Assembly (NCBI GenBank): GCA_027946365.1
Contig: JAPEUQ010000017.1
Span: 496,001-560,000, forward strand
Length of the DNA: 64,000 nt
From: Kalmusia sp. IMI 367209
Taxonomy: Eukaryota; Ascomycota; Dothideomycetes; Pleosporales; Didymosphaeriaceae
Reading direction: 5' to 3'
Positions 5,801-8,170 of the stretch are shown here, piece after piece. A program made the translations under genes and the position numbers. The notes below the pieces were generated by a model. It was given only the letters and a program-made list of their open reading frames with translations, searched no databases and had not been told where the DNA came from. The first letter of the stretch is position 1. Each line of letters opens with the position of its first letter.

Positions 5801-6821
5801 CATCTTGCACTGAGATCTGTGCCATCATTCGGTTGTACAGCGGGTTGAGCCCCGGCGGCAGTGCGTGCAACACCTCTCGCGTGCGATAGAGCGGCACTCC
5901 CTCCAGCTCTTTGCAGACCAGTGATACCCATAGAAATGTGCCCTCTGCCTGATTGTGTAGGAGCTGCTGCACCTTATCTTTCAACCCAGGGCTATAGTCC
6001 TTTATCATCGCTAGTTGTTGTATCTTGAATCTGACAAATGTCCTTACTGCCTTTGATACATGACCGGCGCTGATATCAAGACTAATTTTGATGCCGGTAA
6101 GGTCTGCACGAAGAGATTGCTCTATTCTGGGCACGTTGCGACTTGTCACCAGCCACTTGACTCTTGATCTCGCAAATTTGTTATCGATGATGGTACTCAA
6201 TAGATTATGCTGCCCAAATGTGCACTCGTCGAGGGCATCGATCAAAAGGTACGTCGTTGGTAAGAATTCGTCGTTGAGTATATCTGATAAGATTGCTCGT
6301 AGTGTAAAGAACGCGTTGTGGCCTTCGAAGGGGTTGCCTGCAACATCATACTTCGCCCGAACATGTTGTATGAGCTCCTTTCTCTGCGACACGAGCAGGT
6401 AGATGAGCCCGCGTAACACAGATACAGCATTGTTGAGCTCCGGAACTGTGTTCTGACAGAAGAAGTAGGACACCGTCAACTTATTATCGGCAGTCAGCTC
6501 GTCGATGAGGCCCATCACCATCATAGTCTTCCCCTTTCCCGGATCGCCCTTGATCCACAGCAGCTGCGACTCATCGTGCGTTCTCCAATGCTGGAAGCTG
6601 GGGTCATCCAGTATCCACTTATAGCAGTCCTTGAGCAGCCTGTCCTTGTCTCCTTCGATCCTCGCCCTGTCTTCGCGTGGGTCAGTGACTCTCAGGTTGC
6701 GAAGGCATTGGTCAAGAGGGTCTAGGCTGCCATGGTAATGGTTATGATTGTCACCGTAATGGTTGCGCGAGCTGCCATCCGCTCGATTGTTCGTATATCT
6801 GTGGCCGGTTCGCCGTTCCAT
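2845..6821 (-). CDS. NACHT-WD40 NLR (STAND) protein, HET-E/NWD2-like
   Basis: Signal-transducing NTPase with ligand-sensing repeats, the fungal counterpart of NOD-like immune receptors; cytosolic. Two exons (6821-5214 and 5163-2845) give 1308 residues. The 50-nt intron 5164-5213 has GTAAGC, a GCTAAT branch and CAAG, and joins two frames that otherwise look like separate genes. Order: HRAM-like motif at residues 6-24; conserved pre-NACHT block around DPLDQCLRNLRVTDPRED; NACHT with Walker A GDPGKGKTM and Walker B-like YLLIDALDEC; helical domain; linker EAPLQVYYSALL; then about 14 WD40 repeats to the C-terminus. No HET, HeLo or lipase-like effector domain is fused at the N-terminus. The gene is divergent from the small HeLo-like gene at 7252, sharing a 430-bp spacer, and both carry the same short motif. 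A CTAAC...TTAG acceptor-like site lies just upstream of the ATG, so a 5' exon is possible but none was recognised. Confidence 0.88.
2960..4970 (-). repeat. Tandem WD40-repeat coding array in the NLR
   Basis: About 14 tandem units of roughly 42 codons, each with a form of [GSD]H...(V/I)xxxAFSPD(G/S)KLLASAS.D.T(I/V)(R/K)LWDTxSGAxLQTL. Units are very similar to one another, as expected of fungal NLR repeats that turn over by unequal exchange. The second and third units (near 4640-4830) are shortened: the stretch between SAS and LWDTASG is missing in one, and the HT-to-AFSPDG spacer is short in the next. The last units towards 2845 are more diverged. Confidence 0.8.
6750..6806 (-). other. HET-s-related amyloid-like motif (R0) at NLR N-terminus
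   Basis: NLR residues 6-24 read GHRYTNNRADGSSRNHYGD. This aligns without gaps to the two motifs at the C-terminus of the neighbouring HeLo-like protein, sharing H-x-[FY], N, the spaced [AS]-[KR] or [SR] pair and the final G-[DN]. In Podospora NWD2 the single R0 copy of the HET-s motif also sits at the extreme N-terminus before the NACHT domain. The motif assignment is by eye. Confidence 0.65.
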
Positions 6822-7251
6822 CGGCGTGCCTAAGCGTTGGTTAGCCTACGGGCATGCTATGCACTAGTGAATGACGCTGACTGCGATATATGTGTGGGGC
6901 TCGATCATAGTATGATGGATCTAGGCTAGCTCTATCTGGCTTCTTGGAAAATGGCCAACGGCTACCAAAGCGAGTTAGAAGAGTTTAAAATTCGAATCAA
7001 GAAGATGTTGGTAGGCAAAGGTGTGCAAGGCACTGCCAAGCCATCAGCCGAGGGGCATAAGTTATGCTAGGCTTCCCTAAGCCCGCATCTACCAACCAGA
7101 ACTTTGGTGCCAAGAGCTGAGATGCAGAGGATCCTATCGTGTACCTTGATAAAGTCTACTCTTCACCAATTTGTAACAGTGTTGTACACCGCTCTCTCCT
7201 ACCGAACAAGTTAACGACAGTCATCGCGTACAGATTCGGTCGGGACACATC
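6822..7251. promoter_or_regulatory. Shared divergent promoter of the NLR and HeLo-like genes
   Basis: A 430-bp non-coding spacer between two divergent start codons. No coding exon was found on either strand. Its shared position suggests co-expression of receptor and effector; this is inference from layout, since no specific factor site was recognised. Confidence 0.5.
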
Positions 7252-8170
7252 ATGGCTGAACCTCTCAGCATCGCTGCAAGCATTATATCAATCGCCACAC
7301 TCGCCTATTCCAGTAGCAAAGCACTTTACGAATCGGTATCCGCAATACGGGATGCTCCTCGAGAGTTTCAGGACCTAACGCAATATATCAATGGTCTCAG
7401 TCAAATCCTCAAAGCTTTAGAAGCAAGCCTTGGTGGTAGTGGCGTAAGGCTGTCTGATAGCCAGATCGCATGCTTACAAGAGGCGCTACCGACTCTGGAG
7501 GCATGTAATCTAGAATGCGAGAGGTTCAAGACTAAGATAGAACAACTCACCTCACGGTCTCAAGATGGGAGACGAAGTTTCAGGGATAATGTCAAGCTGA
7601 GCTTTCACCGCAGAGACATCGCAAATTTTCAGACGAGGCTGGCTAGTTGGAAGGCCAGTCTTGCTCTTGCACTAGACGCCTTGTTATTGTAAGAGAACCT
7701 CGATCGGCGTGATACTCCTACCTAATGTACACTTACCCAGTACGTCTATATCTGCCAACTCAGAAGCCTTCGAGGCGCTTGAAAACAAGGTGAACACTGC
7801 CAAGGCCCAAATTACCGCCGACCTACACAAAGTAAACACACAGTTGGAACAACTGCTGGTATATGAGCCGGATAGCGAAGAAGAACTACGAGTCATAGCT
7901 CGGAGAAAGGTGGATGAGGAGCAACAGAAGGCAACCCTAACCCAATGCCTCTTATTGTGCCAAGCAGCAGTGAATGGAGCAACGCAGACAACTGGTCATG
8001 TTTTTCGGAACAACAAGGTTGAGGACGACGCAAAAGCTATTTACGGCAACATCGGAAATGTGCCTGATTATAGTGCCTCGCACACCTACGATGGTAATTC
8101 CGCAAGAGGTAGGGCAAAAGTATTGATGGGGAACGCGGACGCTGCCGCTCTCCGCAAGTTCATGAAATAA
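7252..8170 (+). CDS. HeLo-like (Helo_like_N) domain protein with two HET-s-related motifs; candidate cell-death effector
   Basis: Two exons, 7252-7688 and 7741-8170, give 288 residues; the 52-nt intron has GTAAGA, a CCTAAT branch and CCCAG. The N-terminus (MAEPLSIAASIISIATLAY, then KALYESVSAIRDAPREFQDL) matches the helical HeLo-like domain found at the N-terminus of fungal STAND proteins, followed by heptad-like helices to about residue 215. The C-terminus holds two copies of a 19-residue motif, at residues 231-249 and 259-277, six to nine residues apart, and then a short tail. Family knowledge: HeLo and HeLo-like domains are membrane-targeting death executors, switched on when an NLR seeds amyloid folding of the C-terminal motifs. 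Here the domain is a separate gene divergent from an NLR carrying one copy of the motif. An alternative reading is a simple orphan STAND N-terminal domain protein. Confidence 0.75.
7994..8134 (+). repeat. Two HET-s-related amyloid-like motifs (R1, R2)
   Basis: R1 (7994-8050) reads GHVFRNNKVEDDAKAIYGN and R2 (8078-8134) reads SHTYDGNSARGRAKVLMGN. They share [GS]-H-x-[FY], a central N, A-K and a terminal G-N at identical spacing. Two copies in the effector plus one in the partner NLR matches the HET-S/NWD2 arrangement. Confidence 0.68.

Follow-up and report, generated by a model that had tools for sequence, protein, structure and literature searches.

HET-s-related amyloid motifs (HRAMs) link fungal NOD-like receptors (NLRs) to cell-death effectors, and such pairs show that a cell-death order can be passed on by a protein fold. 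In the NWD2/HET-S system of Podospora anserina (HRAM1), a NACHT-WD NLR carries one motif at its N-terminus (NWD2 residues 3-23) and the adjacent, divergently oriented effector carries two (PMC3321046, PMC4518210), while the FNT1/HELLF system of the same fungus belongs, by its effector HELLF, to HRAM5. The account given by Daskalov (2015; PMC4518210) covers 155 HRAM effectors, 98 of which have an adjacent motif-bearing NLR, and describes a perfectly conserved glycine at motif position 19, a preference for arginine or lysine at position 15, a general and not strict tendency towards hydrophobic residues at positions 5, 8, 10, 16 and 18, and a histidine at position 3 as the mark of the HRAM3 subfamily. 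Here, we describe a locus of this kind in a 64 kb stretch of the genome of Kalmusia sp. IMI 367209 (hereafter the window; contig JAPEUQ010000017.1, positions 496,001 to 560,000, from an assembly of 42.8 Mb in 30 contigs), where a NACHT-WD40 NLR and a divergently transcribed HeLo-like effector share a motif that occurs once in the former and twice in the latter. The initial annotation of this DNA had proposed an analogous two-gene death module, and its one-plus-two motif layout, spacing and divergent order indeed match those reported for nwd2/het-s (PMC3321046).

The NLR contains a single 21-residue HRAM-like motif, R0, at residues 5-25 (TGHRYTNNRADGSSRNHYGDN; window positions 6747-6809, minus strand), and the effector contains R1 at residues 230-250 (TGHVFRNNKVEDDAKAIYGNI; 7991-8053, plus strand) and R2 at residues 258-278 (ASHTYDGNSARGRAKVLMGNA; 8075-8137, plus strand), all three being supported by translation, a position-specific scoring matrix (PSSM) and shuffles. 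The two repeats stand near the C-terminus of the HeLo-like protein and are joined by a loop of 7 residues, inside the range of 6-18 that characterizes HRAM effectors. Segments of 19 residues had initially been marked at NLR residues 6-24 and effector residues 231-249 and 259-277; these positions are correct, lie in translated frames and align without gaps, the natural unit being 21 residues instead of 19. When NLR residues 1-57 were compared with the full-length effector in every ungapped register, the best 21-residue match proved to be the R0:R1 register, whose score of 44 was reached in 0/1000 shuffles (mean 19.7, standard deviation 4.4, maximum 38), and the next-best register family, R0:R2, scored 27 at most. 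The internal repeat formed by R1 and R2 scored 35 in the last 80 effector residues, a value reached by one of 2000 shuffles, and the similarity of R0 to R1 (42) exceeds that of R1 to R2 (33). The PSSM was built from 13 repeats of seven effector relatives, with the window sequences excluded and the disrupted R2 of relative P0006 dropped, and across 63,390 six-frame scan windows of the 64 kb it returned R1 (45.5), R2 (34.6) and R0 (25.9) as its top three; scores above 8 arose in four places only, the fourth lying elsewhere in the NLR (14.7), and none of 20000 shuffles of NLR residues 1-130 equalled R0. Because a matrix made without the window ranks R0 third, the NLR motif is recognized by a profile of the relatives' effectors alone. 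The motif is shared by the NLR and the effector beyond chance.

The gene structures place all three motifs in coding sequence. The NLR gene (minus strand) comprises exon 1 (5214-6821), which encodes R0 and the NACHT domain as judged by reading frame and Pfam, an intron of 50 bp (5164-5213; GTAAGC...CAAG) linking the NACHT and WD40 frames, and exon 2 (2845-5163), which encodes the WD40 repeats detected with Pfam; the need for this intron to join NACHT and WD40 corrects the initial annotation. Once it is removed, the protein has 1308 residues and no internal stops, with NPHP3_N at residues 67-228 (E=2.1e-35), NACHT (E=4.9e-11) and 13 stretches of WD40 (PF00400, E=3.8e-133). R0 lies inside the open reading frame 5109-6821 (minus strand), and the start at 6821 holds because an in-frame stop is found 9 codons upstream with no other ATG between. 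The divergent intergenic region (6822-7251) measures 430 bp between start codons, and the coordinates thereby confirm the gene arrangement first described. The effector gene (plus strand) comprises exon 1 (7252-7688), with the first part of the HeLo-like domain (PF17111), an intron of 52 bp (7689-7740; GTAAGA...CCCAG), and exon 2 (7741-8170), whose joined translation gives the end of the HeLo-like domain, R1, loop, R2 and a short C-terminal tail. The joined protein has 288 residues, and PF17111, named PigL_N in the Pfam copy used and treated as the HeLo-like family in PMC9815663, covers residues 2-220 (E=4e-35), which bears out the HeLo-like character previously assigned to it. Both introns are short GT..AG introns predicted from the sequence. 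The effector join is collinear in relatives P0002-P0005 across the junction, and the start of exon 2 (TSMSAN) is also reached by the gene models of P0007 and P0008 from different upstream sequence. A wrong start or intron as the source of the motifs was dropped on the basis of the translation and the agreement of the effector relatives with the join.

The effector search yielded 8 relatives in all, including proteins from Amylocarpus encephaloides, Pseudogymnoascus sp. 05NY08 and Phaeosphaeriaceae sp. PMI808, and the C-terminus is present in seven of them (P0009 is without it). R1 is kept in all seven, with Leu at position 3 in P0007, and R2 in six, with Asn at position 3 in P0003; the R2 of P0006, from PMI808, has a disrupted end and a long extension. 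P0006 and the NLR relative P0126, which is itself without an N-terminus, probably share a contig, each being recorded on one of 1,110,220 bases. When NLR residues 1-50 were searched by themselves against proteins, 2 candidates but no hit resulted, and the partner NLRs of the effector relatives were not found by this route.

Most of the HRAM grammar is followed when residues are counted by column over 15 repeats, namely window R0, R1 and R2 and the R1 and R2 of six relatives (P0006 omitted). Glycine occupies position 19 in 15/15 repeats and a basic residue position 15 in 13/15, the three window motifs included, and His 3 is found in R0, R1 and R2 with identical spacing to Gly 19 and in 13 of the 15 repeats overall. 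Positions 5 (F/Y), 10 (V/A, T once) and 18 (Y/M) follow the hydrophobic tendency in every repeat, and the published rule that positions 17 and 21 are both hydrophobic or both polar is followed by R1 (I/I), R2 (L/A) and R0 (H/N). R1 and R2 bear opposite charges at positions 6 (R/D), 11 (E/R) and 13 (D/R), which are the salt-bridge positions of HET-s (shuffle p=0.0017); among seven proteins compared, only the window protein is charged at position 11 in both repeats, and oppositely so, which suggests a joint change in the two repeats. R0 contains neither Lys nor Glu, consistent with the reported r0 bias, and stands singly near the N-terminus of an adjacent NLR, as in 98/155 published cases.

As to the class of the motif, PF11558, the canonical HET-s prion domain, gave no match in the whole effector at E<=1 and none in the seven C-termini at E<=10, a setting in which HMMER filters discard most weak matches; this profile matches only 38/155 HRAM proteins in the data of PMC4518210. 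The canonical HET-s prion domain (HRAM1) was ruled out as the identity of the motif by the absence of PF11558 and by His, not Asn, at position 3 of the three window motifs. By the textual description of HRAM3, which gives H at position 3, the window motif appears to be HRAM3-like, and the earlier suggestion of a little-described motif family gives way to this described subfamily (PMC4518210). The fit to the HET-s/HELLF fold is weak. AlphaFold modelling gave two alike rungs, and three of five Foldseek matches in PDB were HELLF or HET-s amyloids with weak scores; with a model of 142 residues, Foldseek returned 417 matches at E<=10, none of them at E<=0.001, and the 50 matches listed were mostly helical proteins with no HRAM amyloid among them.

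The NLR relatives were examined as the best 120 of 4552; those listed with a species name are ascomycetes, and presumably mostly Pleosporales. Motifs were called with a profile that ignores positions 1-3, 8 and 15, at a threshold of 99% of shuffles, and one was found near the N-terminus in 78 of the 120, starting at residue 7 in 62 of these 78. Asn occurs at position 8 in 77/78, while His 3 and basic 15 occur in none (0/78 each). The near invariance of Asn 8, also seen in 14/14 effector repeats, places a polar residue at what is usually a hydrophobic-core position. At least 35 residues precede the TDP anchor in 101/120 relatives, 23 of which failed the motif threshold, and some of the 23 are plainly motif-like, such as P0052, P0055 and P0056, which rank with the closest to window R0 by identity and all lack both H3 and basic 15. 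In two NLR relatives from other genomes (P0086, P0092), an N-terminal PNP_UDP_1 domain replaces the amyloid motif, the effector being fused and not motif-linked.

Within this family the window receptor stands apart in its resemblance to R1. NLR-family motifs score on average higher with an R2 profile than with an R1 profile, whereas window R0 reaches 27.5 with the R1 profile against a maximum of 19.9 among the 78 motifs, and its R1-minus-R2 difference is 14.5, where the family averages -5.8 and does not exceed 5.5; under the combined R1+R2 profile R0 is no outlier (25.9 vs 25.2 for the best relative). Compared with the consensus of the ten nearest motifs, which were drawn from 84 pattern-selected rows by a pattern that itself restricted position 8, six of eight differences in R0 move to the residue found in effector R1, including one, at position 20, where the consensus residue also occurs in R1. 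Six such differences arose in 1/200,000 draws of a simple substitution simulation, a figure that is indicative only, because part of the pattern could also come from a two-residue deletion that shifted an ancestral GH into register. On these sequence comparisons, R0 may be read as re-matched to its linked effector. A more far-reaching version, which we regard as tentative and somewhat doubtful, is that of a re-keyed receptor, in which the passage of R0 from R2-like to R1-like, together with the effector's apparent new charge pair at position 11, would have set up a signalling line of its own, closed to sister NLRs, in which an Asn 8 ladder runs through the core of an unusual solenoid. If true, this would represent a natural shift of amyloid-signalling specificity. 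R0 and the motifs of the NLR relatives constitute a natural sequence set for the question of which residues decide who seeds whom, which is open in amyloid signalling.

Used as a query on the genome, the R1-R2 region of a relative matched once, at the window's own copy (such counts being lower bounds), and the next HeLo-like match to the effector was only 25% identical. A six-frame PSSM scan of 69 loci (229 kb), including 27 NLR matches, two of which are the same decayed copy, and nine PNP_UDP_1 matches, found the motif solely in the window pair and in that decayed NLR; the next scores were a NACHT-internal stretch at 14.7 and then 8.2. The HRAM pair was absent in 11 HeLo-like loci read by eye, from a genome total of 15 HeLo-like matches including the window's. 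PNP_UDP_1 proteins were considered as alternative effectors and rejected, the 9 matches having no good motif in the stretches scanned and a best score of 8.2 on an antisense frame. A possible second pair on contig C8, where an NLR and a HeLo-like match lie 5 kb apart, was likewise set aside: the NLR starts with a domain that by eye resembles PNP_UDP and is not one of the nine PNP_UDP_1 matches, and the frame of the HeLo-like match is interrupted by stops or introns. Another HeLo-like gene (L041, G000:C8:911690; frame from 1977) has a downstream frame ending NGNVYSSIVAWTINGSVTVCGSK, which could be a different signalling motif. The decayed motif-bearing NLR copy (G000:C29:1125781-1126095; loci L009, L020) has five in-frame TGA codons with HTAVYDDNGADGESTSIYGNV still visible, and is possibly a product of repeat-induced mutation. 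Five near paralogues of the NLR had a scanned upstream stretch, with a HET domain before NACHT in two, NACHT_N in one, and no Pfam match over 150 residues upstream in the other two. The two with an N-terminal HET domain (L003 and L007, on G000 C26 and C5) have a domain order that we take to be an HNWD-like layout. Since paralogues or relatives of the NLR have HET, NACHT_N or PNP_UDP_1 there, the N-terminal slot is occupied by a motif or else by a built-in domain, as would suit a region for signalling.

By analogy with the mechanism described for NWD2/HET-S and HELLF (PMC4518210, PMC7889193, PMC3321046), it is highly probable that this pair signals by amyloid templating. The WD40 NLR would sense a ligand, NACHT oligomerization would gather several N-terminal R0 motifs, and the clustered R0 would fold into a beta-solenoid stack able to template the effector's R1-R2 region, each molecule supplying two rungs, R1 and R2, whose register the opposite charges at positions 6, 11 and 13 would maintain. 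As in the Podospora systems, conversion would free the HeLo-like domain for an attack on the plasma membrane that kills the cell, and the killing would presumably serve non-self recognition or defence.

Several observations weigh against this proposal and lend themselves to other explanations. Position 8, usually hydrophobic in HRAMs, is Asn in 15/15 repeats, and position 16, which is A or V in 13/15 and G once, is Asn in R0, the hydrophobic tendency there being followed by effector repeats only. The segments are short, and they score weakly against solved amyloids by profile and by fold, as might be expected if the likeness were due to chance or to a generic linker, rich in Asn and Gly, that plays no part in amyloid; this explanation is scarcely credible and is strongly disfavoured by the shuffles, the observed matches being reached in 0/1000 and 0/20000, while the three motifs rank 1-3 among the 63,390 scan windows and the motif is kept in relatives of both proteins. 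The pair might instead be a decayed or diverged relic, which inherited the motif and lost the signalling amyloid as polar residues such as Asn 8 entered the core, and the decayed NLR copy at C29:1125781, with its five TGA stops, would be in keeping with such a history. Asn 8 is, however, a conserved trait and not decay, because it is present in the relatives and in 77/78 family NLR motifs; both genes keep an open reading frame across their GT..AG introns, and the opposite charges at position 11 are the sole case among the seven proteins compared, so that we judge a relic very improbable.

The excess of receptors over effectors also counts against a closed pair, since a related N-terminal motif is found in 78 of the best 120 NLR relatives vs 8 effector relatives in all, and a mean NLR:effector ratio of 5.7:1 is given in PMC9815663 for NLR12, an HRAM3-like class with PNP_UDP effectors. 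Such numbers would suit a branched network in which the NLR motif signals to other, unlinked effectors and the neighbour is either just one target among several or itself responds to several NLRs. The genome search with the relative's R1-R2 region nevertheless matched the window only (a lower bound), the 69-locus scan showed the motif solely in the window pair and the decayed NLR, and R0 is specifically R1-like; a branched network is thus unlikely, if less so than a relic, and amyloid templating between the two neighbours is preferred.

The surroundings of the pair include a second gene of non-self-recognition type, a HET-domain gene at 12168-14066 (plus strand; PF06985, E=1.7e-14) located 4 kb from the effector. 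A Spherulin4 family gene follows at 14719-15579 (plus strand; PF12138, E=2.9e-59), and near it are a polysaccharide deacetylase, a FAD-binding oxidoreductase in pieces, a sugar transporter and an amidase.

Compared with NWD2/HET-S, the window pair shares the opposite charges of R1 and R2 at the HET-s salt-bridge positions 6, 11 and 13 (PMC4518210), and differs in its effector, which is HeLo-like (PF17111) and not HeLo and has no PF11558 match, and in its motifs, which have H at position 3 where the HET-s motif has N. HELLF is also unlike: as aligned here, its first repeat has none of the window's His 3, Asn 8 and basic 15. The HRAM3 subfamily, compared here by description, agrees in H3, G19 and R/K 15, and Pseudogymnoascus, the genus of effector relative P0004, is represented in PMC4518210 by a species with HRAM3 only; window Asn 8 departs from the general HRAM pattern. 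The NLR12 class, called similar to HRAM3, has an HRAM3-like motif at NLR N-termini, where HRAM classes mostly start at residues 5-9, but is reported with single copies on PNP_UDP effectors, mainly in Sordariomycetes, in contrast to the two copies on a HeLo-like effector in the window (PMC9815663). The table of PMC9815663 gives no experimental test of the HRAM3-like class, and the window pair is therefore a clean candidate for one. In conclusion, with adjacent motif-bearing NLRs and divergent orientation already known from published cases, this locus constitutes a well-supported further example of a HET-s-type pair.
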